Position numbers and translations under genes: made by a program
DNA from: Agarivorans sp. TSD2052
GTDB lineage: Bacteria; Pseudomonadota; Gammaproteobacteria; Enterobacterales; Celerinatantimonadaceae
Assembly (NCBI RefSeq): GCF_023238625.1
Contig: NZ_CP096670.1
Location: 919,501-983,500, forward strand
Length of the DNA stretch: 64,000 bases
Direction: 5' to 3'
The notes under the pieces: generated by a model
What the model was told of the DNA's origin: nothing
What the model saw: only the letters and a program-made list of their open reading frames with translations
The model's database searches: none
Part shown: positions 1,988 to 56,753 of the stretch, piece by piece
Layout: every line of letters begins with the position of its first letter
Position numbering within the stretch: position 1 is the stretch's first letter

Positions 1988-3490
1988 ATGAATAGGATGT
2001 TTCGCTCCCTGATTTTAGGGGTATTAGCCGTACTGCCTTTCACTGCGCACTCAGCGCAAGAGCAACCCAATATTTTTGTTATTTTCACTGATGACATTGG
2101 TATCTCTAATCTAAGTGCTTATCACAATGGTGTGATGAGCAGTCATACGCCTAACATTGATAGCATTGCTGAAAAAGGCATGTTACTCACCGACTATTAC
2201 GCACAACCCTCTTGTACGGCGGGGCGTTCGGCGTTTTTAACCGGTCAATTACCGGTGCGAACGGGAATGCATTCAGTGGGTTTACCGGGTGGCCCAGTTG
2301 GCTTAAGTGGCGATACGCCTACATTGCCTGAAGTGCTTAAATCTATGGGTTATATGACCGGCCAGTTTGGTAAAAATCACCTTGGCGATAGAGATGAGTT
2401 CTTACCTACTATGCATGGTTTTGATGAATATTGGGGATGGCTTTACCACCTAAATGCCATGGAATACACCGAAGATCCAGATTGGCCAAAAGACCCTGAC
2501 TTTCAAAAGTTTGCTCCCCGTAATGTGATCCACGCAAAATCAGACGGTAATGGTAAGCAAACCATTGTTGATGATGGCCCGCTGCATAAAGAACGGATGC
2601 GTACACTCGATGATGAAGTGAATAAACACACCATTGATTTCATTGAGCGAGCGGTAAAAGCCGATAAACCTTTCTTCACTTGGTATTGCCCGTCTCGTGG
2701 CCACGTTTGGACCCATTTATCCCCTAAATATGAAGCGATGTTAGGTGAAAACGGCTGGGGCCTTCAAGAGGTGGTGATGAAGGATCTCGATGACCATGTA
2801 GGAGAAATGCTAGCCAAAATGGAAGAGCTAGGCATTGCAGATAACACCATTATTATTTTCACGGCAGATAACGGCCCTGAAATAATGACTTGGCCCGATG
2901 GCGGCATGACCCCATTTAAAGGCGAGAAAGGCACAACTTGGGAAGGAGGAGTGAGAGCACCATTGCTGATTAGTTGGCCTGGTAAAATCCCTGCAGGGGC
3001 GGTAAATAATGGCATGTTTGATGGCATGGATTGGTTACCCACTTTAGTGGCTGCCGCGGGTGGCCCAGCAGACTTAAAAGAGAAAATGCTAACAGGTTAC
3101 GATGGCTTTAAAGCGCACCTTGATGGTTACAACCAAGTTGAGATGTTAACCAATGATGGCGAGTCTAAGCGTGAGGTTATTTACTATTACGAGCGCGATA
3201 ACTTACAAGCTGTGCGTGTTGGTGATTGGAAAGCCCACTTTGTGGTACAAAACGAAGGTTGGAGTGGCCCTAAAGAAGAGCTAAACGCACCATTACTATT
3301 TAACTTGCGTCGCGATCCTTATGAGCGAGCGGCCGAAGAATCAGGCATGTACTTAAAATGGATGGGCGAAAAAATGTGGGCCTTTGGTCCTGCGCAAGCG
3401 GCGGTTGCTCAGCATCTTGCATCATTTGAAGAATGGCCTCCGGTAACCCCTGAATCACAAGCCGTAAATAATGGCGGAGTGGGTAACTAG
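1988..3490 (+). CDS. Secreted arylsulfatase-type sulfatase (formylglycine-dependent)
   Basis: A 500-residue sulfatase of the alkaline-phosphatase superfamily. A signal peptide (residues 1-23, ending HSA) sends it to the periplasm or beyond. Metal-binding aspartates are seen at FTDD (35-36). The active-site motif is C76-T-A-G-R80, in which Cys is normally oxidised to formylglycine, so a maturase encoded elsewhere is required. A second family landmark, TADNGPE, follows in mid-protein, and length is normal for the family. It hydrolyses sulfate esters; the substrate is not deducible, though algal sulfated glycans fit the rest of the window. AGGAGA precedes the ATG. A strong terminator follows. 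Confidence 0.9.
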   Translation: MNRMFRSLILGVLAVLPFTAHSAQEQPNIFVIFTDDIGISNLSAYHNGVMSSHTPNIDSIAEKGMLLTDYYAQPSCTAGRSAFLTGQLPVRTGMHSVGLPGGPVGLSGDTPTLPEVLKSMGYMTGQFGKNHLGDRDEFLPTMHGFDEYWGWLYHLNAMEYTEDPDWPKDPDFQKFAPRNVIHAKSDGNGKQTIVDDGPLHKERMRTLDDEVNKHTIDFIERAVKADKPFFTWYCPSRGHVWTHLSPKYEAMLGENGWGLQEVVMKDLDDHVGEMLAKMEELGIADNTIIIFTADNGPEIMTWPDGGMTPFKGEKGTTWEGGVRAPLLISWPGKIPAGAVNNGMFDGMDWLPTLVAAAGGPADLKEKMLTGYDGFKAHLDGYNQVEMLTNDGESKREVIYYYERDNLQAVRVGDWKAHFVVQNEGWSGPKEELNAPLLFNLRRDPYERAAEESGMYLKWMGEKMWAFGPAQAAVAQHLASFEEWPPVTPESQAVNNGGVGN

Positions 3491-26744: not shown

Positions 26745-28100
26745 TTAAACTAATTCTACGTCGGTAATTTTACTGCGATTGAGGGTGATTTTGTAGCGTC
26801 GATAAACAGGGGCTTCGCCATTATCTTCTATCGCAAGTATCAAATTTATTTGATAACGGCGCTCTATGGATTCTCGTGATACCCGGCCTTTCTCTTCTTT
26901 AAACACTACCCCTCGACCGCCTTCTAAATAACGGGCAAAGGGGCGCAGATTTAAGTAAACTGATTCGTGAATGGCGCTATAACCGGCGCGAAAGTTTCGC
27001 CCGAAAACTCGGCTTTCTACGCGATAGTGCAGTAATTCAGCTGATTGGCGATTACGTTGATGACGGTGCGCTAAAATATCAGCAACGGATTCCGGTAAAT
27101 GTTTGGTTTTGATGTAGTCGAGCCAAATCTTTTGCTTGGCAATCAGTGTTTGATTGGCGCTGTCATATAAATCTTTCGACCATTTAGGTTTGCCTTTACT
27201 GATGAACCGCCACATGGCGTTCTTTAAATCTTCTTTAAATACTTCTCGCACCCCGTAAATAGCCGCTAACACCAGTACCATCAGGGCCGTTAAACCGCTT
27301 AAGGCACCTTGGGTTTTAATAATTAGGCTTAATACCACGATCATGATTAAAGCGGTGGCTAAACCAGTCACCAAGCGACGAGTGTTGTTGCCCAGTGAAT
27401 AGGTTTTTTCGCGAAATACTACGCCATATTCAATTAAGCGACGCATTAAGCGCATTTTATTGGCAATACGGTTAGGGTCTGCCACGGTGGCTGCAGAGTT
27501 ATAACCGCGCGTTTCTCGGTAGTTGGTTTCGCTTCTGGCGTACTCTAGTATGCTGTTTCGCTGCTCTAATAGTTCACTAGAACGTGGCCGCTTCGCCATC
27601 ATTCGCATTAATAACTGCTCGGTATGCCAAGATAAATAATTGTCAGCATTTTCAAAATGAGCAAGCTGGGCACTGCCAGTTGGTATATTGCGGCGGAGCT
27701 TCTTTAACAAGCTGGCGCTTTGTTCGACTAAGCCTGCAGCCAGTAGGTAAAACTGTTCGGGATCTTTCTCTTTGAGGGTGAGGTTTACATCAACCTCTAA
27801 TGCAACAACATACTGATAAGCAAATAAATTGAGATTTACGCGGTACTCTTCCAGCGCGAGGTTGTTCATGCTGGCAAAACGGCTTTGCAGTAAAGGAAGG
27901 TGTAAACCCGCGCTGAAGTAGCTGTGTTTACCGGTGATGCCGCTGTTAAAATAGGTGTTTTCTTTAAGCGTTTTAGGGCCTATGCCCATCTCTTTAGGCA
28001 GAGAAAAATACACATCGATACGCCGTTGAGTATGCATTTCCATTTGGTGGTGGAGTTTAACCACCATTTTATCTTCTTGCTTTAATTGAATCGTCGGCAC
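26745..28100 (-). CDS. Uncharacterised two-span membrane protein
   Basis: A 451-residue protein: a soluble N-terminal part (about 1-245), a hairpin of two transmembrane helices (about 248-290, ALIMIVVLSLIIKTQGALSG and ALMVLVLAAIYGV), and a soluble C-terminal part rich in basic residues. I do not recognise a family. The listed start is a GTG with AGAGAG upstream; an in-frame ATG 11 codons later is an alternative. The gene is monocistronic, and the even coding signal makes it a real gene. No function assigned. Confidence 0.65.
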   Translation of the reverse strand: MPTIQLKQEDKMVVKLHHQMEMHTQRRIDVYFSLPKEMGIGPKTLKENTYFNSGITGKHSYFSAGLHLPLLQSRFASMNNLALEEYRVNLNLFAYQYVVALEVDVNLTLKEKDPEQFYLLAAGLVEQSASLLKKLRRNIPTGSAQLAHFENADNYLSWHTEQLLMRMMAKRPRSSELLEQRNSILEYARSETNYRETRGYNSAATVADPNRIANKMRLMRRLIEYGVVFREKTYSLGNNTRRLVTGLATALIMIVVLSLIIKTQGALSGLTALMVLVLAAIYGVREVFKEDLKNAMWRFISKGKPKWSKDLYDSANQTLIAKQKIWLDYIKTKHLPESVADILAHRHQRNRQSAELLHYRVESRVFGRNFRAGYSAIHESVYLNLRPFARYLEGGRGVVFKEEKGRVSRESIERRYQINLILAIEDNGEAPVYRRYKITLNRSKITDVELV

Positions 28101-30435: not shown

Positions 30436-32568
30436 ATGGAGAGTCGGGGGATCTCAAGATTTATCGTGAGTATGCAGCAAGCTTGGGTGCAAATAGGGTG
30501 GTTGTTGCTGGTGTTATTGGCGGTAGTCGGATTACCCAAGTTGCAGGTTCAGCCAAGCATTCAAGCTTATTTTTCCAAAGATGACCCTCAAGTTATAGCG
30601 CTTGAACGTTTTCAACAGCAGTACACGGCTGCACCCAATTTATTGTTATTATTGACTAGTGATGTTTCATGGCGTGGTTCCTCACAGCAAAAAAGTCTTA
30701 AGGATTTTATAGAGCAACTTGGTCAGCTCTCAGGGGTAGACGCGGTTAGCCCTTACACCTTATTAGCGCTAGAACAGGCACTGCCCCCCAATATTGCTAA
30801 ACAGTTTGTTAGTGAAGACAGCTTAAACATCAGCTTGGGCTTAAATATCTCCCCTGAAATAGCAGCGCAAGCGAGTGCCTTAAAGCAATTGTTTGAACAC
30901 TTAGATAGTCGTTTCGATGTGTTTAGCAAAACGGTCGGTTTTTCATATCGTTATGGGGGGGAACTGGCCTTAAGTCGCCAATACTTAGCGGTGTTGCGCC
31001 ATGATTTAAGCTGGTTTGCTCCGGCTTTATTACTCAGTTTTGCTCTTTTATTTAGCTGGGTTATTCGCCAGCCTCGTTGGCTACTGGGGATGGCTAGCTG
31101 CGCGTTAATCAGTCTGCTTATTACCTTAGGTTTAAGTGCTTGGATGAGCTTAAAACTGGCCGCAATTAGTGCCTTTTTACCGCTGGTGCTGGTGAGTTTA
31201 GCCATGGCCTACTCCAGCCATCTTTATTTTGCTTGGCGTCGCTTATTACGAACAAAAGCCAACCAGTTACCACTTTCTAGCGCACAGGCGATGCACTTAG
31301 CCTTAGAGAGTAAGTTGTTACCGCTATTTTGGGGGGCATTGACCACAGCACTTGGTTTTTTGTTGCTGTATTTAAGCCCATCTCCTCCGATTGCAGATTT
31401 TGGTTTAATGGTGGCGATGGCTGTGGTGATTAATGCGGTGGCTTGTTACTCAATACTGCCACTTTGGGTAAAGGGTATTGACGTGACAAGCACGACCATA
31501 GATGTGCGGCCTGAGGCAGATTCTATTAAATTTTCTGGCTTGATTAAAGCGCGAAAAAGCCTATTGATACTGGTGTTTGGGCTAAGTGTTGTAGCAGTGA
31601 TGTCAGTGAAAAACCTACGTTTTGATGACGACTCCTTAGGTTACTTTCCTGATGATAACCCCTTTTCGCAAAGCCGAAATCTTGTTCAGCAGCAGTTTTT
31701 GGGTATGCATAGTCTGCGCTATCTATTGCTTGAAAAAGATCAAAGCCAACGATCATTTGCTGATGTGTCAGCTCTTGAATCCCTATTAGGTTTTTTAAAT
31801 AAGCAACCGGAAGTCCGCCAGCTAACGAGTCGTAACGATTGGTTAGACTGGCTTGAGCAAGATCCAAGTGCTAAGGCTAAGGTATTTGCGCTACAACAAG
31901 CTGATGTTGAATGGCTTAAACAAGAACAATTATTGACTGTGTGGCTGCAGCCTTTAACTAGTCGTCAGCTCATCGCCTTTGAGCAGCGAGTAGCAGATTG
32001 GGCTGGCTCGCAACAGATTAATTTATCACCGGCATATAGCAACAATTTGCTGTTTGCCAAATTCAGCCAGGCGAACGGTCAGGCGATGCTGTTATCTTTT
32101 GCAGCGGCCCTTCTATTGGTGGCCTTAGTGGTGCTGCTGTTACGTCGCAGTGTGTACTTAATGGTGTTAGCCTTATTGGCTAATGGTTTGCCATTACTGT
32201 GGGTGTTTGCTCTATGGCAATGGAGTGGGCAGCATTTAAGTTTAGGCAGCGCGGTTGTAATGGGGATGATGCTTGGCATCATTGTTGACGATAGTTTGCA
32301 TATTTTACTCAACGTGCACCCGGCTCGCAGTGTCGCTAATCTCCAGCAAGGGATGAACGATATTATTCCAGCTTTGTTACTGACCTCAGGAGCATTGGTT
32401 ATTGGTTTTTCTTTAGGGGCGTTATCGGACTTCTTACCTATTCAACAAATGAGCTTATTGTCGAGCTTAAGCTTGGTGATCGCCTTGGTGTTTGATCTGT
32501 TATTACTCCCGTTATGTTTACCGTTGCGTGATACGTCGCCCTCCTTATCAATAGGAGAGAGCATATGA
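30436..32568 (+). CDS. MMPL/RND-family (HAE3-like) exporter
   Basis: A 710-residue transporter with two repeats, each having a transmembrane helix, a periplasmic loop (about 40-185 and 395-545), and a bundle of five or so helices. Repeat two carries the proton-relay style motif GMMLGIIVDDSLHILL; the matching region of repeat one (VLVSLAMAYSSHLYFA) lacks the Asp, as in some lipid-type exporters. These proteins move hydrophobic molecules such as lipids or polyenes from the inner membrane outward. Its TGA overlaps the next ATG (ATGA), so it is coupled to the diiron and KAS III genes, which probably make its cargo. Confidence 0.85.
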   Translation: MESRGISRFIVSMQQAWVQIGWLLLVLLAVVGLPKLQVQPSIQAYFSKDDPQVIALERFQQQYTAAPNLLLLLTSDVSWRGSSQQKSLKDFIEQLGQLSGVDAVSPYTLLALEQALPPNIAKQFVSEDSLNISLGLNISPEIAAQASALKQLFEHLDSRFDVFSKTVGFSYRYGGELALSRQYLAVLRHDLSWFAPALLLSFALLFSWVIRQPRWLLGMASCALISLLITLGLSAWMSLKLAAISAFLPLVLVSLAMAYSSHLYFAWRRLLRTKANQLPLSSAQAMHLALESKLLPLFWGALTTALGFLLLYLSPSPPIADFGLMVAMAVVINAVACYSILPLWVKGIDVTSTTIDVRPEADSIKFSGLIKARKSLLILVFGLSVVAVMSVKNLRFDDDSLGYFPDDNPFSQSRNLVQQQFLGMHSLRYLLLEKDQSQRSFADVSALESLLGFLNKQPEVRQLTSRNDWLDWLEQDPSAKAKVFALQQADVEWLKQEQLLTVWLQPLTSRQLIAFEQRVADWAGSQQINLSPAYSNNLLFAKFSQANGQAMLLSFAAALLLVALVVLLLRRSVYLMVLALLANGLPLLWVFALWQWSGQHLSLGSAVVMGMMLGIIVDDSLHILLNVHPARSVANLQQGMNDIIPALLLTSGALVIGFSLGALSDFLPIQQMSLLSSLSLVIALVFDLLLLPLCLPLRDTSPSLSIGESI

Positions 32569-33269
32569 ATCGTCATCCTATGGGGGGCTGCTTTAGTAGC
32601 CATCCTGGCAAGCTTAACACTGAGCATGCAATTGCTAAGTGGGCTCAGCACTATGCCAAACAAGGTGTACATTTTAACGATACACATAGTGAAGCTCTGG
32701 CATTGTTAATGCCCTTATTGTTATGTGGTGAGCAATCTGCCCAATTGGTTTTTCAGCAACAGGCTAAGGTCTTAGCGCCGCAAGTGTGTAAATCGTCGAT
32801 TAATGCGTTAAATGAAGTTGAAGCCGATGAGGCTTGGCACGACGAAGCACTACAATGGGTATTTGCCCAATTGCCGGTACTGACAGAGCAGCATCAAATA
32901 CGCCGTGCGGCCCAGCGTTTTTATTCTGGTTTGGGACGCAGTGAGAGCCTTCAACAGCAATTTATTCGTATCGCGAGTTTAGATGCCTGCGTGACACAAC
33001 TGATGCAGATGATGGAACGGGGCACTATTGGCAGCCAACATCCCTTTTCATTGTTGTGTGGTTTGATTAAGAAAGACGAAGCTAAACACGTATATGTGAG
33101 CAAATACTTTGCTAAACATTTGGGCGCTAGCGTGGCAGACATCGCTGAAGAGCGGCTGTTGATATTACAACAGCTAATGACATTATTAGGCCGCCAAGCC
33201 AATCAGTTTGAGGTTTTGGGGGTCGATCTTGAGGTATTACAAAAGAAGCTGGAGTTAAAATGGCTGTAA
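32565..33269 (+). CDS. Ferritin-like diiron protein, probable oxygenase
   Basis: A 234-residue all-helical protein. Two E-x-x-H motifs of the ferritin-like or haem-oxygenase-like diiron type are visible: E89-A-W-H92 in EADEAWHDEA and E172-A-K-H175 in KKDEAKHVYVS, about 80 residues apart. AurF-like N-oxygenases and fatty-acid desaturase/decarboxylases use such sites to activate O2. The motif GGCFSSHPG near the N-terminus is unusual. The gene overlaps its neighbours on both sides (4 and 10 bases), between an exporter and a KAS III-like synthase, which suggests oxidation of an acyl or aromatic intermediate. The exact family and substrate are not recognised. Confidence 0.65.
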   Translation: MNRHPMGGCFSSHPGKLNTEHAIAKWAQHYAKQGVHFNDTHSEALALLMPLLLCGEQSAQLVFQQQAKVLAPQVCKSSINALNEVEADEAWHDEALQWVFAQLPVLTEQHQIRRAAQRFYSGLGRSESLQQQFIRIASLDACVTQLMQMMERGTIGSQHPFSLLCGLIKKDEAKHVYVSKYFAKHLGASVADIAEERLLILQQLMTLLGRQANQFEVLGVDLEVLQKKLELKWL

Positions 33270-34309
33270 AGTTTGCAAGGCATTCGTTAAATCTACTGGC
33301 TGCTAACTGGTGTGTGCCGAATCAAGCGGTGAGTAACCAACAATTGTTAGCACAACTGTCCGACCGCTGTGGTTGGCGAATGGCCCGTAAAGCCCACATT
33401 TTTGCCAAGCGTCTGGGGGTTGAACAGCGATATTTTAGCCGTAACTTCGCACAGCCCCGCAGCCAAGCATCGCCTAATGGCGTATCTATGGCTAAACAAG
33501 TCATAGAGCAATGTTTAAGTGAAGCGGGTCTTGAGCCTAATCAGCTATCGTATTTGCTCACTCATACCTGTACGCCACATACCCAAGTCCCCCCTAATGC
33601 TGCTTGGTTAGCTGATCAGTTGGCCTATCATGGAGCCTACTTAGAATTACGCCAAGCCTGTACCGGCTTTGCTAATTGCTTACAAATGGCGAGTGCGCTG
33701 TGCGCCGCCGACCAGCAGCCAGTGGCCATTGTTGGCAGTGAAACCGGATCGGTATATTTTGATTTAGCCCCCCACTTTGTAGACCAGCAACAGTTAGTTA
33801 ATTTTGTTCAAATGGGAGATGGATGCGGTGGGGTCATTGTTGCGCCAGCTAAGCAGGCTAGAGGACTAATTAAAGACATTTACCTGGGGCAAATTGGCCA
33901 TCAGAAAGAACCTGGGTTTTATTTAGATGCCGGGGCCGATACGGTGGGAGAGGCGCAAATGGCTCGCTTTCATCACAATAGTAATGCCGTAAGAGAAACG
34001 GGCTCTCAATTGTTTGAATTAGGGTTAAAAGCCGTATTAGAGCGAGGTTATCAACTCAGGGATTTTCGTTATATTCTGCCACACCAAGCCAATGGCCATA
34101 TTGACAAGTTATTAAGCAAAGCCCTTGCTTATCCGCAGCAGCAAATTATAAACGACGCCAAACATTTCGGTAATTTAGGGTCGGCGGCTATTTGGTTGAG
34201 CTTCGCGCGTTTATTGCAAACTAAACCGCTGGAGCCTGGCGATCAGGTATTGGTATTAGGCGCAGAAGCCACTAAATATCTATATGGAGGTTTTGTTTAC
34301 CAGCATTGA
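33260..34309 (+). CDS. KAS III-like beta-ketoacyl synthase
   Basis: A 349-residue thiolase-fold condensing enzyme. The catalytic triad is complete: C134 (RQACTGFANC), H275 (LPHQANGHID) and N305 (KHFGNLGSAA). KAS III enzymes join an acyl-CoA to malonyl-ACP or to another acyl group. The N-terminus diverges from housekeeping FabH, and the gene is coupled to a diiron protein and an exporter instead of fab genes, so a dedicated product pathway is likely. OleA-type head-to-head condensation or specialised-metabolite priming are alternatives. Confidence 0.85.
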   Translation: MAVKFARHSLNLLAANWCVPNQAVSNQQLLAQLSDRCGWRMARKAHIFAKRLGVEQRYFSRNFAQPRSQASPNGVSMAKQVIEQCLSEAGLEPNQLSYLLTHTCTPHTQVPPNAAWLADQLAYHGAYLELRQACTGFANCLQMASALCAADQQPVAIVGSETGSVYFDLAPHFVDQQQLVNFVQMGDGCGGVIVAPAKQARGLIKDIYLGQIGHQKEPGFYLDAGADTVGEAQMARFHHNSNAVRETGSQLFELGLKAVLERGYQLRDFRYILPHQANGHIDKLLSKALAYPQQQIINDAKHFGNLGSAAIWLSFARLLQTKPLEPGDQVLVLGAEATKYLYGGFVYQH

Positions 34310-37068: not shown

Positions 37069-38928
37069 ATGACAACAACAATGTACCCAAAGGTATTGGC
37101 TTTCCTTATCACTGCGAGTTTATTTGGATGTGGAGGCGGTGGTTCAGATTCATCTTACGACCCGATATGTAATCAAGACTGTGCAGGCCCCGTAGATCCC
37201 ATAGACCCTATTGACCCGGTCGATCCCGTGTACCCAGAAGATAGCATCCCTTATTCGCTGGAGCGTTATCAAGGGGTTATAGATGCCTCTTCCTTACAGG
37301 TATCCGATCCTGAAGGCTCAGCAGGTAATAAAGTTACCATCAGCGAATTAGATGAATACCACGATGAGTATTTTTACATAGATGGAGAAAGCGGCGACCT
37401 CACTTTTACCATGCAAGGTTATAGCAACCGTTCTGAATTACGCATTCTCAACAACTTTTCAAGTGCCAGTGAGCAATACCAACAACGCTTGGTGGCTAGC
37501 GTATTACCCATTGAACCCGAAAAATCGGTGGCCGCTAGTACTGCGTCTAAAGATGCTTTCACCCTGCTACAAGTTCACAATAAAGGCACTGTGATTAGTG
37601 GTGGTACTGATGGCATCATTTCCCACCCCTTATTACGCGTAGTGTGGGAACAATCGCGCAGCGTAGATGGTACTGATTACTCAAGTCATTACTGGGCGGT
37701 AGTTAAAACTAATGCTTACGAGTGTGGAGAGGGCAATGAAGATAGCTATTATGGTAAGGATGAATGTGACAATTCTTATCGTTACTTCCCATTGACCCAC
37801 TATACGGCGGACGCAGCTACTCACTTTGAGATTATTGTTGGTAATAGCGCCTTGGTACTTAAGGTGAACGGTGAAACCAAGCTTAACTACGATATTAGCT
37901 ATTGGGATGCGCTGCTCAGTTACTTTAAGGCGGGTGTGTATAACCAATTTTACGATGGGGGGAGTGAAGTACAATTTGCTACGCTGCAATACTATGAAAA
38001 TGAATTTATTGATGAACTTGAGACAAGCTCATGGGATATCGATAGTTGGAAAATCACGATTCCCGCCAGTAAAGATACTTGGTATGGCGAGGGGGGGAGT
38101 AGCGCTGCTGAACTAGAGCCTGAGCATTGTGATTCATCTAAGGATGTTCTGAATAATGATTCCAATATATATCATGACCTCGCCGAGCTTGCTTACTTCA
38201 ATGTCATTGATGGGCGGATGCATTTTAGAGCCAATATGGCTTATGGCACGACAACAGCAAATACCAACTATATTCGCTCGGAGCTACGTGAGTTATTTAA
38301 TGCTCAAAGCGTAGGCTCGTGTAGTACCAGTTCTAATGCCACAAGTTGGTCAATTGTTGACAGTGACACGAATAGCAAAACGCACCGTCTCAGCGCTACT
38401 TTGCGTATTGACGATTACCCGACGATTGACGGTCAAAAGCCCAAAGTCGTGGTTGGGCAGGTGCACGGCTGGGAAGTGAAACAGGCATTGGTTAAGTTGC
38501 TTTGGGAAGGCAGTGATACGCCAGTTAGGGTGATCTTGAATCAAGACTTCTACAAAAACAATGAGAAGTGTGGTTCAGAAGAAGATGTCATTGCAGATCC
38601 AAACTGTGATGAATGGTCATTTAGTGTCGACATGGGCACTTATCAAGCGGAGCAAGAGTGGTCATACGTGATTCAAGTTGATGAAGCGGGGATTAGTCTA
38701 GCAACAGAATATGCCGATGGTTCAAATAAAGTGTCTCGCACCTTGCCTTGGGGTGAAGTGTATTCAGATACCAACGACGGCAGTGTTGTGATCAGTGAAC
38801 AATGGACCGACCCTGACGTCGCTTATTATTTTAAGGCGGGTATTTACCCTCAGTTCACTGCCGACGAAGATTATGATGGACAGATATTTGACCTTAGTTT
38901 TAGCCAACTAAGCATCAGCCACAATTAA
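37069..38928 (+). CDS. Lipoprotein with two PL7 alginate-lyase-type domains
   Basis: A 619-residue lipoprotein: signal peptide with lipobox LFGC (Cys21), a Gly/Ser and Pro-Asp repeat linker (about 40-57), then two PL7-type jelly-roll domains. Each has the three PL7 active-site blocks: R121-S-E-L-R, QVH at 168-170 and YFKAGVYNQ at 285-293; then R403-S-E-L-R, QVH at 464-466 and YFKAGIYPQ at 587-595. PL7 enzymes cleave alginate by beta-elimination. Both copies keep the catalytic blocks, so both may be active. It is probably anchored in the outer membrane. A small secreted CBM-like gene follows. Confidence 0.88.
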   Translation: MTTTMYPKVLAFLITASLFGCGGGGSDSSYDPICNQDCAGPVDPIDPIDPVDPVYPEDSIPYSLERYQGVIDASSLQVSDPEGSAGNKVTISELDEYHDEYFYIDGESGDLTFTMQGYSNRSELRILNNFSSASEQYQQRLVASVLPIEPEKSVAASTASKDAFTLLQVHNKGTVISGGTDGIISHPLLRVVWEQSRSVDGTDYSSHYWAVVKTNAYECGEGNEDSYYGKDECDNSYRYFPLTHYTADAATHFEIIVGNSALVLKVNGETKLNYDISYWDALLSYFKAGVYNQFYDGGSEVQFATLQYYENEFIDELETSSWDIDSWKITIPASKDTWYGEGGSSAAELEPEHCDSSKDVLNNDSNIYHDLAELAYFNVIDGRMHFRANMAYGTTTANTNYIRSELRELFNAQSVGSCSTSSNATSWSIVDSDTNSKTHRLSATLRIDDYPTIDGQKPKVVVGQVHGWEVKQALVKLLWEGSDTPVRVILNQDFYKNNEKCGSEEDVIADPNCDEWSFSVDMGTYQAEQEWSYVIQVDEAGISLATEYADGSNKVSRTLPWGEVYSDTNDGSVVISEQWTDPDVAYYFKAGIYPQFTADEDYDGQIFDLSFSQLSISHN

Positions 38929-52668: not shown

Positions 52669-54723
52669 ATGAGAGTTAAACAACATTTGGTGGTGGCTGC
52701 ACCATGTCTAGTTTTATTGCTTAATGCTTGTGGCTCAACTAATGCACCCCCAGCGGCAGTGAGTGTCGATGCTACTGATCCCACTGGTCGACCTAGTGCG
52801 CTTTGGCAGTTGGTTTGGAGTGATGAATTTAATGCGGCTGACATAGATGTTGCTAAATGGAGCTTTGAAGAGCATTGCTGGGGAGGAGGGAACAATGAAC
52901 AGCAATGTTATACAAAGAGAAAAGCCAATGCCTTTATTGAAAATGGCGCACTGCATATAGCGGCCAAACGCGGAAACTATAGCGGCGCTTCTTTACCCGG
53001 CGGTGATAAACGTGTGAAGAAGACCCTTCCATTTACCTCAGCCAAGCTACACACCAAAGGCAAAGTTGATTGGAAGTACGGACGATTTGAAGTCCGCGCA
53101 AAAATGCCGCAAGGGCAGGGCACTTGGTCGACAATTTGGATGCTACCCTCAAACTCGGTTTACGGTAAATGGCCTGCGTCGGGGGAAATTGACATTGTAG
53201 AAGCGGTAAATTTAAAAACCAAAACTGACCTGCAAGATGCACCCAGCACCCAACGAGAATCGCGGGTTTATGGTGGGTTACATTACGGCCGAGCTTTCCC
53301 CGAAAATGTGCGCTCCGGCCAAGCCTACAGCTTACCTTACGGGAAAAACCCCGCAGACAATTTTCATACCTATGCTATCGAGTGGGAGGAAGGCGAGATC
53401 CGCTGGTACGTAGATAATCTGCACTATGCAACACAGCGTCAAGACGAGTGGTACAGCCAATTCAAAGAGAATGGTGTGTTGATTAATGGTAAAGGCGCAG
53501 CGCCCTTTGATGAAAATTTCCACTTACTACTTAACTTAGCGGTAGGAGGTTCTTGGGCGGAAAATACCAACGATACAGGAGTCGACAGTTCTGTTTTCCC
53601 GCAAAATCTAAGTATTGATTATGTCAGGGTGTATCAATGTTCAGTGGATCGTTCAACGGGTAGGGGCTGTGCCACTATTTCTAATGATGCGGCGTTGGTC
53701 GAGGGTTACCTTGCTCCAGAGTTATCGGTAGCCGACCGTAGTTTTGCAACCGGCCCGGTATTTGGGTTATTTGAAGACAGTTTAGACGGTCGTCTTACCG
53801 CCAACAGTTATGACCCAGAAAATAATATTATCTATCAAGAGCTTGATGAGCTTGGCCGCGGTAAGGTTGTGAAGATCAGTAAATCAGGTAAGGCGGGCAA
53901 TGTCTATTTTACCGCGCCACCGACCAATATGAGCCACTGGTTAAAAGGTGGAGAGCTGATATTTGATTTAAACATTCAATCTATGGATAAAAGTGCGGCA
54001 CTGTTGGTGAAAATGGACAGTGGTTGGCCTGATGCTAGTGACTTTAAGGTAAATTTACCTAAAAAAGGTGAATGGGCCCAGATTAGAGTGAACGTTGCTG
54101 ATCTCGTGGAAAATGGTAATAGCTTGGTGTCGGGTAAGTTTGTTGATATGACGCAAGTGACAAATTTATTTGTGATAGAACCCACCGGCAAGATGACCTT
54201 TAAATTGGATAATATTCGCTTTGAGTACCCTGAAGCCGATATGCCAATCAATTTTGATAAAGTAGAGGCTAATTATCAGTTAGTGGATTTTGGCGGTAAT
54301 CAAACCGAGATCATTGATGACCCTAAAGGCCAAAAAGGGCGTGTTGCCGCCACCGTTAAGTCAGAAAATGCCGCAATATGGGCCGGTACAACGGTTGGCG
54401 GGGTCGATGGTTTTGCCAGTCCCTTGGTGATGACGGGTGATAAACCTACGTTAAGCCTTTGGGTATATTCTTCTGAGGCTGGTGTCCCGGTAAGGCTTAA
54501 AATTGCTGATAGCAAAGAAGGACAGCACTTCGCTGAGGTAGAAGTTAAAACACGCAGCGCTAACCAATGGGAGCGGTTGAACTTCGATTTCTCTACAGCG
54601 AATCCTAGCCTGAATAGCCGTTGGAACTATAACAAAGTGACAGTGTTTTTTAATTTTGGTGTACGCGGTGAAGATGTCGGACCAAAAGTGTTCTACTGGG
54701 ATGAGTTGAAGGTAGCACCTTAA
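52669..54723 (+). CDS. GH16 laminarinase-type lipoprotein with two C-terminal modules
   Basis: A 684-residue secreted lipoprotein (lipobox LNAC, Cys21). The GH16 domain covers about 45-325 and has the catalytic motif E173-I-D175-I-V-E178, the form found in beta-1,3-glucanases. Two beta-sandwich modules follow: one at about 355-525, shared with the second GH16 protein, and an extra one at about 535-684 (LSLWVYSSEAGVPVRLKIAD), both probably carbohydrate binding. It likely cleaves laminarin at the outer membrane. Two LacI operators lie upstream and a terminator follows. Confidence 0.9.
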   Translation: MRVKQHLVVAAPCLVLLLNACGSTNAPPAAVSVDATDPTGRPSALWQLVWSDEFNAADIDVAKWSFEEHCWGGGNNEQQCYTKRKANAFIENGALHIAAKRGNYSGASLPGGDKRVKKTLPFTSAKLHTKGKVDWKYGRFEVRAKMPQGQGTWSTIWMLPSNSVYGKWPASGEIDIVEAVNLKTKTDLQDAPSTQRESRVYGGLHYGRAFPENVRSGQAYSLPYGKNPADNFHTYAIEWEEGEIRWYVDNLHYATQRQDEWYSQFKENGVLINGKGAAPFDENFHLLLNLAVGGSWAENTNDTGVDSSVFPQNLSIDYVRVYQCSVDRSTGRGCATISNDAALVEGYLAPELSVADRSFATGPVFGLFEDSLDGRLTANSYDPENNIIYQELDELGRGKVVKISKSGKAGNVYFTAPPTNMSHWLKGGELIFDLNIQSMDKSAALLVKMDSGWPDASDFKVNLPKKGEWAQIRVNVADLVENGNSLVSGKFVDMTQVTNLFVIEPTGKMTFKLDNIRFEYPEADMPINFDKVEANYQLVDFGGNQTEIIDDPKGQKGRVAATVKSENAAIWAGTTVGGVDGFASPLVMTGDKPTLSLWVYSSEAGVPVRLKIADSKEGQHFAEVEVKTRSANQWERLNFDFSTANPSLNSRWNYNKVTVFFNFGVRGEDVGPKVFYWDELKVAP

Positions 54724-55163: not shown

Positions 55164-56753
55164 CTACTTTTCGAAACGAATGTTATCTAGCTTTATTACA
55201 GTGTTAGGCGACTGTTCAAATACCAACAAGTTTCTAATTTCTGCGATATTGGCTGCGCCTCCAGCAAAGCGATTACCGCCAGCTAGGATGTCAGCAATAC
55301 TAATTTTCACTTCACCCCAGCTACCAACAGGAGGTAACTCTACGGTGTAATCACTGGTGTTCGGCCAGCCACTATCCAATTTAACTAGCAGTTCGGCGGC
55401 GCTTGCTTGGCTCTCTACTTTCACGTCTAGCACTAAATGGCCGGTCTCTAACCAATGTGTTAAATCGGTCTTTGGCGCGCGGAAATAGATGTTACCAGCC
55501 CCATCTTGCTTCGTGACTTGAATAACTTTGCCGCGACCTGCTTCTTCAACTTCCGCGTATTTAACCGCATCAACCGGATTGTAGCTTTCAAAGGCTAGGT
55601 TGCTATTTAGGTTATCGGTATAGATATCCAATAGCGGGCCATCGGCATAACTATCATCCGCAGCTAAAATAGCAGGAGGCTCTACACCAGGCACTAACAC
55701 CGCATCTTCTGACACTGACGCACAACCTTTACCTTTCCAGCGGTCCACTCTACAGCGATATACGCGCACATAGTCAACTGACAAGGCTTGCGGGAACACC
55801 GATTCATCAATCCCGTGTTCATTGGCTTTAGCCGCCCAGTTTCCGCCTACCGCTAGGTTTAGAAGTAAGTGAAATTTTTGGTTAAACGGCGCGCCGGGTT
55901 CAGTAGCAGTGATTAACTCCCCGTCTTTTTCGTATTGACTATACCAACCATTATCTTTCTGAGTGGCAAAATGAATATTGTCGACATACCAGCGTATCTC
56001 GCCTTCTTCCCATTCAATGGCGTAGGTGTGGTAGTCATCGGCTGGGTTAATGCCGTTAGGTAGTTTGGCGCCTTGGCCTGTGTGGGCGTTATCAGGCCAC
56101 TTTTTACCAAAGTGTAAGGTGCCATGAACTCGGCTTTCAGGTTGACCAATTGAACCTTTTTCATCAGAAGAGGTTTTTAGGTTAACCGCTTCCATAATGT
56201 CAATTTCACCCGATGCTGCCCAACCACCATATACCCAATCAGTAGGTAGCATCCAAATGGCTGGCCATGTTCCCTGTCCTTCAGGTAGCTTTGCTCTTAC
56301 TTCAAAGCGACCGTATTTCCAATCGCCTTTGTTTAAGGTACGTAAACGGGCAGAGGTATAAGGCAAGGTTTTATTTAAACCCTTCTTACCATCAGGGTTG
56401 TCTGGCCCAGTAAAGTTACCTCTTTTGGCGACAATGTGCAGTTTACCGTCTTCTACAAACGAGTTTACTTTGCGTTTGGTGTAACACTGTTGCTCGTTAT
56501 TACCGCCGCCCCAACAGTTCTGTTCCCACCCCCATTTTCTGGTGTCAATCTCGTCACCATCAAATTCATCACTCCAGATGAGTTTCCATGAATCACTTGG
56601 CTCTACCGGCTCGGCTGTGAGTACCAATGCTTCTTTTGTAACAACCAGTTGGTGTTCGCCACTATCTGCAGGCGTTGAACCACAACCGCTCATTGTCGCT
56701 GTCACTGCTAATGCGGTAATGGTCATCAGCGGTTTTGACCAATTTTTCATCAT
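55164..56753 (-). CDS. GH16 laminarinase-type lipoprotein
   Basis: A 529-residue lipoprotein (lipobox MSGC, Cys24) with a GH16 domain at about 55-340 and the motif E183-I-D185-I-M-E188. It is closely similar to the neighbouring GH16-1 over the catalytic domain and the first C-terminal module (for example CWGGGNNEQQCYTKRK occurs in both) but lacks the last module. The two genes face each other, as expected of an inverted duplication followed by divergence. The likely role is endo-beta-1,3-glucanase. A LacI operator lies 32 bases upstream. Confidence 0.9.
   Translation of the reverse strand: MMKNWSKPLMTITALAVTATMSGCGSTPADSGEHQLVVTKEALVLTAEPVEPSDSWKLIWSDEFDGDEIDTRKWGWEQNCWGGGNNEQQCYTKRKVNSFVEDGKLHIVAKRGNFTGPDNPDGKKGLNKTLPYTSARLRTLNKGDWKYGRFEVRAKLPEGQGTWPAIWMLPTDWVYGGWAASGEIDIMEAVNLKTSSDEKGSIGQPESRVHGTLHFGKKWPDNAHTGQGAKLPNGINPADDYHTYAIEWEEGEIRWYVDNIHFATQKDNGWYSQYEKDGELITATEPGAPFNQKFHLLLNLAVGGNWAAKANEHGIDESVFPQALSVDYVRVYRCRVDRWKGKGCASVSEDAVLVPGVEPPAILAADDSYADGPLLDIYTDNLNSNLAFESYNPVDAVKYAEVEEAGRGKVIQVTKQDGAGNIYFRAPKTDLTHWLETGHLVLDVKVESQASAAELLVKLDSGWPNTSDYTVELPPVGSWGEVKISIADILAGGNRFAGGAANIAEIRNLLVFEQSPNTVIKLDNIRFEK

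Follow-up and report, generated by a model that had tools for sequence, protein, structure and literature searches.

In the aldehyde-deformylating oxygenases (ADO), the metal ligands E32, E60/H63, E115 and E144/H147 sit on helices H1, H2, H4 and H5, and the substrate is a fatty aldehyde (PMC4286721, in excerpt). R2lox co-purifies with C16/C18 hydroxy fatty acids (PMC10867098, in excerpt), and BioE, which cleaves long-chain acyl groups carried on acyl carrier protein (ACP), has a diiron centre that was likened to that of the cyanobacterial ADO, cADO (PMC12915131, in excerpt). For the condensing enzymes, the excerpts of PMC13336041 place a FabH-like enzyme with a P450 in a biotin-related cluster, which differs from the arrangement described here. 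The present locus lies in a window of 64,000 nucleotides (G000:C1:919501-983500) from Agarivorans sp. TSD2052, whose genome is a single contig of 4.6 Mb, and consists of three overlapping genes encoding an MMPL-type exporter, a ferritin-like diiron-type protein and a divergent β-ketoacyl-ACP synthase III (KAS III)-like enzyme. We read this trio as a compact cassette for making and exporting a small molecule or lipid derived from an acyl group, a reading to which we give a probability slightly above one half (about 0.55). In the best reading its core is the diiron and KAS III pair, which would condense and oxidise an acyl substrate, and the exporter is exchangeable.

Conservation of the gene pair

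An original prediction, made from the window's letters, held that the three genes overlap by 4 and 10 bases, and both the open reading frame (ORF) coordinates and the sequence at the two overlaps bear this out (Table 1). The start codon of the diiron gene is preceded by AGGAGA and that of the KAS III gene by GGAG. Patterns resembling promoters or terminators occurred no more often than in shuffled sequence.

The diiron protein was used as the query in a contig library holding one genome per species (84,980 species), a scan which with a single-protein query recovers close relatives only. It returned 16 loci. The closest named relative is in Agarivorans sp. Toyoura001 (75% identity), and the named hosts are Agarivorans, Shewanella, Psychromonas, Vibrio and an Oceanospirillaceae metagenome-assembled genome (MAG). 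Such hosts are mostly marine and often cold-living. A profile of the protein matched 21 of 394 sampled whole genomes of the order and 3 of 369 of the class; a wider profile matched 4 of 398 from the phylum, all four within the order. Within the family there were matches in 6/12 genomes, all six from the window's genus, where 6/7 genomes carry the trio and one (G003) is without it. A plasmid search gave no match. The order and class scans together yielded 22 genomes, and flanks were taken for 20, the other two being the window's own genome and G005, which has the same contig as locus L002. These 20 flanks, the 16 scan loci and the window make 37 rows, and removal of 4 duplicates leaves 33 distinct loci.

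The three-gene neighbourhood was found again in this set. The KAS III gene lies directly downstream of the diiron gene, on the same strand, in 33/33 loci (32 by clustering, L053 read by hand), and an MMPL gene lies directly upstream in 25/33. Because the remaining eight (L011, L014, L016, L045, L046, L051, L052 and L053) have no adjacent MMPL gene, the constant unit is taken to be the diiron and KAS III pair. The 10-base overlap between these two genes recurs in 19/33 loci, counted on ORFs taken from the first start; it is 4 bases in L016, L017, L047, L048 and L053, and a gap of 25 bases separates the genes in L051 and L052. The 4-base overlap of the MMPL and diiron genes is also present in L002, L005 and L061-L064. 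Gene order and overlaps recur in other genera, and the surroundings of the cassette differ between genera, with at least two settings within Shewanella, which suggests that the cassette has moved as a unit.

Pairwise distances of the three proteins are strongly correlated, with r = 0.959 for diiron and KAS III (32 loci), 0.947 for diiron and MMPL (24 loci) and 0.936 for KAS III and MMPL (24 loci), values reached in 0 of 2000 permutations in each case. Correlated distances fit both transfer as a unit and a shared species history. Together with the recurrence of order and overlaps in other genera, they place the association of the trio beyond chance. The three protein trees agree in shallow, well-supported groups, and several branches are long and unsure. 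L017, flagged as a long branch, groups with L016, L045 and L046 in the KAS III tree (96/91) and falls outside that group in the diiron tree (96/92). L009 and L015 are placed with Psychromonas in the MMPL tree (100/99) and with L005 in the KAS III tree (87/91).

Table 1. Features of the trio (positions in the window) and YHS-type lipoprotein genes beside related units (positions in the locus named)
Feature	Position	Strand	Size	Basis
MMPL/HAE3-type resistance-nodulation-division (RND) exporter	30436..32568	+	710 aa	ORF list; Pfam MMPL and Patched SSD
Ferritin-like diiron-type protein, unnamed family	32565..33269	+	234 aa	ORF list; AlphaFold2; Foldseek; conservation
Divergent KAS III-like condensing enzyme	33260..34309	+	349 aa	ORF list; Pfam; AlphaFold2
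Stop/start overlap ATGA, MMPL and diiron genes	32565..32568	+	4 bases	
Overlap of diiron and KAS III genes	33260..33269	+	10 bases	
YHS-type lipoprotein gene, L053	3161-3781			
YHS-type lipoprotein gene, L017	4819-5310			
YHS-type lipoprotein gene, L047	10693-11205			
YHS-type lipoprotein gene, L048	3854-4315			

The two enzymes of the pair

At E <= 1 neither Pfam nor NCBIfam matches the diiron protein, nor does any sequence in the Protein Data Bank (PDB). The two E-x-x-H motifs claimed for it are present (E89xxH92 and E172xxH175) and are kept in all 33 sequences, in which C9, F10, C54, G55, E56, S58, D140 and D171 are also invariant. An AlphaFold2 model from a 19-row alignment (predicted local distance difference test, pLDDT, 91.3; predicted template modelling score, pTM, 0.89) has four long helices, each with one set of predicted ligands at about its midpoint: E56 on 39-70, E89/H92 on 76-100, D140 on 129-151 and E172/H175 on 160-185. 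The model places the protein among the ferritin-like diiron-carboxylate proteins, with the pattern E, ExxH, E/D, ExxH and one set to each long helix. The expected ferritin-like fold was obtained; clustering of the E and H residues was judged from helix position alone.

When the model was compared with the PDB by Foldseek, the top match was ADO (E 1.5e-3, template modelling (TM) scores 0.65/0.68), followed by R2lox, with other ADO chains in the list at TM 0.49 to 0.70. A heme-oxygenase-like diiron fold of the UndA type, suspected from residue spacing, was dropped when Foldseek gave ferritin-like chains. From its predicted fold and motifs the protein is a new family of ferritin-like diiron-type proteins with a predicted metal site. 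Weak family matches were surveyed in 26 relatives (E <= 1, Pfam and NCBIfam). FA_desaturase_2 appeared in five (best E 0.0016), Rubrerythrin in two (0.00016), DUF455 in one (0.00015), AcsF in three (0.00027) and R2lox in two (best 0.0086).

Two features outside the predicted site are kept in 33/33 sequences. C9-F10 (32589-32594) belongs to an N-terminal arm that was modelled with lower confidence, and C54 (32724-32726) lies two residues before the first predicted ligand. In L045 (6023-6823) and L046 (8427-9200) a flavin/NAD-reductase-like gene, assigned by Pfam in L045 only, is divergent to the diiron gene; it is possibly an electron source, possibly a chance neighbour.

The KAS III-like protein scores above the Pfam cut-offs for ACP_syn_III_C (55.3 bits, cut-off 26.6) and ACP_syn_III (32, cut-off 24), and its AlphaFold2 model has a pLDDT of 89.3. 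The triad C134-H275-N305, predicted to be intact, is so in every aligned row (33/33, 32/32 and 32/32, one row ending at a contig end), and with this Cys-His-Asn triad in a thiolase fold the protein belongs to the KAS III superfamily. It falls outside the FabH family, with 100.1 bits against a TIGR00747 cut-off of 292.1. In Escherichia coli FabH, W32 and R151 hold the adenine of coenzyme A (CoA), and K214 and R249 hold ACP. Equivalents of W32 and R151 are absent from 33/33 sequences and that of R249 from 32/32, and K214 is matched by Lys in 2/33; none of the four is kept in the window's protein, and for that reason its contact with the carrier is expected to differ from that of FabH. The genome's two other FabH proteins score over the family cut-off and keep all four contact residues.

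The best match by both profile and fold was 5by7, titled AbyA1 tetronic acid condensing enzyme; in the fold search it was followed by a Burkholderia FabH and then by PqsD structures, at the third rank and just below. Modelled fold and sequence together point to a place on the secondary-metabolite side of the superfamily. The E-values of the first ranks are close together, and the fold search therefore does not fix the reaction.

Exporters and neighbouring genes

The MMPL protein exceeds the Pfam cut-offs for MMPL PF03176 (25.8 bits, cut-off 20.5) and Patched SSD (29.6, cut-off 23). The transmembrane Asp pair D618-D619 is present in 25/25 aligned rows, window included, and with the MMPL domain identifies an MMPL/HAE3 RND exporter. 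Neither NCBIfam cut-off was reached, the best scores being 62 of 751.85 bits for HpnN and 52 of 351.9 for HAE3. Among solved structures the profile is nearest to MmpL4/5 and then to HpnN. The genome also encodes a paralogue (C1:1160236) that scores 343.7 bits with the trio MMPL profile, but it sits with LolA-like and outer membrane protein (OMP)-like genes, whereas the trio exporter sits with the diiron and KAS III genes. This other set (L090 4203-8522, G000 C1 ~1.158-1.163 Mb) was recognised by eye, without a family scan. By eye, too, the same combination of MMPL, LolA-like and OMP-like genes is present in G012 (L091, L092), and MMPL with a LolA-like gene in G017 (L093) and G484 (L094).

Downstream of the pair in L053, whose genome belongs to a different family within the class, genes on the same strand encode an ATP-binding cassette (ABC) ATPase domain, an ABC-2 permease and a YHS-type lipoprotein. 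YHS-type lipoprotein genes adjoin the unit in L017, L047 and L048 as well (Table 1). Against a Pfam YHS cut-off of 30.3 bits, the L047 and L048 genes score 33.3 and 32.8, and that of L017 falls short at 24.8; the gene in L053 resembles the L047 protein (E 1.8e-28). These four loci come from families f7, f8 and f118 and the Oceanospirillaceae MAG, and by estimate, not computation, chance is hard to accept as the explanation for adjacency in four unrelated lineages. YHS proteins are present in 28/34 genomes with or without the trio, and the window genome has three, none near the trio. The lipoprotein is possibly a fourth part, one that is not obligatory.

The original prediction that no fab, carrier or tailoring genes are adjacent agrees with the Pfam scan of the window neighbours, which found none; these were an OMP-like protein (no match), PpiC, DUF2750, rhomboid and a DUF-like gene at 26745-28100. 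Five other genomes of the genus (L002, L061-L064) have short-chain dehydrogenase/reductase (SDR) and PhoD-like phosphatase genes on the flanks of the trio. In the window genome these two stand side by side without the trio (L095 4602-7512, G000 C1 ~3.716-3.719 Mb), which rules them out as obligatory parts. The gap between them was considered as a clean empty site and dropped, since outside the end of the PhoD gene it did not match the flanks from other genomes; in G003, which lacks the trio, there was no rhomboid match, so no empty site was located that way. TonB receptor genes near some Shewanella and Psychromonas loci were not accepted as a linked part, as they fall into two separate sequence clusters.

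PfaA, of the polyunsaturated fatty acid (PUFA) synthase, is over its cut-off in 82/388 genomes of the order and in 10/21 trio-bearing genomes, which is above average. The ten belong to genera g5, g9, g14 and g24, in which other listed genomes also have PfaA. PfaA is missing from all six genomes of the window's genus that carry the trio, and a PUFA synthase is thereby ruled out as a required partner; a loose association through shared genera is conceivable. Elsewhere in the window, Pfam identifies polysaccharide genes: an alginate lyase 2, two GH16 proteins and a sulfatase (37069-38928, 52669-54723, 55164-56753 and 1988-3490).

Proposed pathway and comparison with known systems

The cassette could work as follows. 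The KAS III-like protein would load C134 with an acyl group that the cell's fatty-acid pool supplies, and H275 and N305 would drive condensation with a second small unit, as in AbyA1 and PqsD and unlike the initiation of fatty-acid synthesis. Before or after this condensation the diiron protein, acting like ADO with O2 and electrons from general reductases, would oxidise the acyl chain by hydroxylation, desaturation or cleavage. Export of the hydrophobic product from the inner membrane would then fall to the MMPL pump, with the ABC-2 pump taking its place in one lineage. Metal binding, the acyl substrate, the order of the steps, the product and its export are all inferred here; an acyl substrate is favoured because the nearest diiron folds, ADO and R2lox, and BioE act on or hold fatty ligands. 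Adjacency in different chromosomal settings and co-varying distances also count in favour of the cassette.

Several observations count against it. The unit has no linked gene for a carrier protein, ligase, thioesterase or dedicated reductase, so that substrate supply and release have to be assumed. Asp at the third carboxylate departs from the ADO pattern. None of the Foldseek matches reached E <= 0.001, the best being 1.5e-3, and ribonucleotide reductase R2 subunits, toluene/o-xylene monooxygenase and a phenylacetate-oxidation-like protein stand lower in the same list. The relatives match unrelated families about as strongly as ferritin-like ones (for example EFR3 at 0.0007 and a response regulator at 0.00093), and with the weak matches scattered in this way the diiron reaction cannot be read from homology. 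Two Psychromonas genomes with the pair only, G100 and G165, have no MMPL profile match at E <= 0.001; there the exporter is either dispensable or replaced by something unseen. The earlier proposal of a minimal pathway that builds, oxidises and exports a fatty-acid-derived product holds in part and, once narrowed to a diiron and KAS III core served by an exchangeable exporter, is still the best idea available. The conserved unit, a ferritin-like fold near enzymes acting on fatty compounds and the ABC exporter in L053 speak for it, and the MMPL exporter drops out of the constant unit.

Among the other explanations, remodelling of membrane lipids deserves the most weight, although we consider it unlikely. 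An unusual acyl chain or derivative would stay in the envelope, moved by the MMPL protein towards the outer membrane, and there would be no secreted metabolite. HpnN is thought to move hopanoids towards the outer membrane, and it is HpnN, ahead of HAE3, that gives the exporter its best NCBIfam score, with both far under the cut-off. The marine and often cold habit of the hosts and the YHS lipoproteins adjoining four loci also fit. A sparse distribution, in 21/394 genomes of the order and missing from one of seven in the genus, fits an accessory trait better, however, and eight loci have no MMPL gene beside the pair. Mere accidental co-transcription of three genes with unrelated roles is very improbable, given adjacency in 33/33 loci from several families and in distinct genomic settings.

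The structure searches bring in two further alternatives, both of them improbable. The diiron protein might be an ADO analogue that makes an alkane, alkene or ketone from a fatty aldehyde or from what the KAS III-like enzyme produces, and it does have ADO as its top PDB fold, with the ligand-bearing helices in ADO order. The scanned window neighbours include no aldehyde-forming reductase, however; the Pfam and NCBIfam matches of the 26 relatives at E <= 1 include no ADO family, and the third carboxylate is Asp in 33/33 sequences. Equally, the PqsD structures high in the KAS III fold search, with the toluene/o-xylene monooxygenase (rank 39) and phenylacetate-oxidation-like protein (rank 50) in the diiron list, would suit a pathway to an aromatic or N-heterocycle, in which the starter joined by the KAS III-like enzyme is non-fatty (anthraniloyl, for example) and a nitrogen or the ring is oxidised by the diiron enzyme. 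Against this, the scanned window neighbours include neither an aryl-CoA ligase nor an anthranilate gene, the best diiron folds are acyl-binding, and no AurF-type protein occurs in the first 50 rows.

Returning to the cassette, a bolder version of it can be put forward tentatively, on balance with more doubt than confidence. The trio may represent an undescribed class of minimal secreted-lipid pathway in scattered marine gammaproteobacteria, in which a KAS III-like enzyme and an ADO-like oxygenase of a new family, fed by primary fatty-acid metabolism and served by an interchangeable exporter (MMPL or ABC), make a new oxidised acyl metabolite. A hand-over of the acyl chain between the two enzymes is conceivable, and the invariant N-terminal Cys-Phe arm of the oxygenase perhaps takes part in it. 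The original prediction knew of no described system with exactly this trio, and joint queries by several exact terms in 5.39 million open-licence papers found no description, though one in other wording could be missed. The trio is a small, portable and testable cassette, and one of its enzymes is matched by no Pfam or NCBIfam model at E <= 1, its relatives giving weak matches (best 1.5e-4). An acyl pathway of two enzymes, with no dedicated carrier protein, would be unusually easy to express and assay, and could reveal a new marine lipid or signal. Cluster finders aimed at large biosynthetic loci would probably overlook it.

Compared with known condensing enzymes, the KAS III-like protein shares the Cys-His-Asn triad of AbyA1 and PqsD at only 21-22% identity. 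The tetronate partners of AbyA1 are glyceryl-ACP supply genes, and no such gene turned up in the Pfam scan of the window neighbours, which did not extend to the remainder of the genome. With FabH, both that of E. coli and the genome's own two, it shares the fold and equivalents of C112, H244 and N274, but it lacks the four contact residues and scores far under the family cut-off.

The diiron protein and cADO have in common a ferritin-like all-helical fold with E, ExxH, a carboxylate and ExxH on four long helices in the same order. If D140 is a ligand, the diiron protein differs in having Asp at the third carboxylate, so that five of the six ligands in the order E, E, H, E, E, H are kept. Pfam holds an ADO family model, and it is not among the matches of the relatives. 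C9-F10 and C54, invariant in the diiron protein, may be a further difference. R2lox, the second group of fold matches, has the same 33 residues from the first Glu to the ExxH motif (E69 to E102; PMC10867098, in excerpt), but E167 at the third carboxylate in place of Asp, and its NCBIfam model matches only 2/26 relatives. BioE, compared by description only, resembles the diiron protein in having a stand-alone diiron centre likened to that of cADO, and differs in ligand spacing (EmBioE E26, E53, H56, E125, E155 and H158; PMC12915131, in excerpt). If the proposed pathway is right, the trio would add a reaction to the ADO, R2lox and BioE group of acyl-oxidising diiron enzymes.

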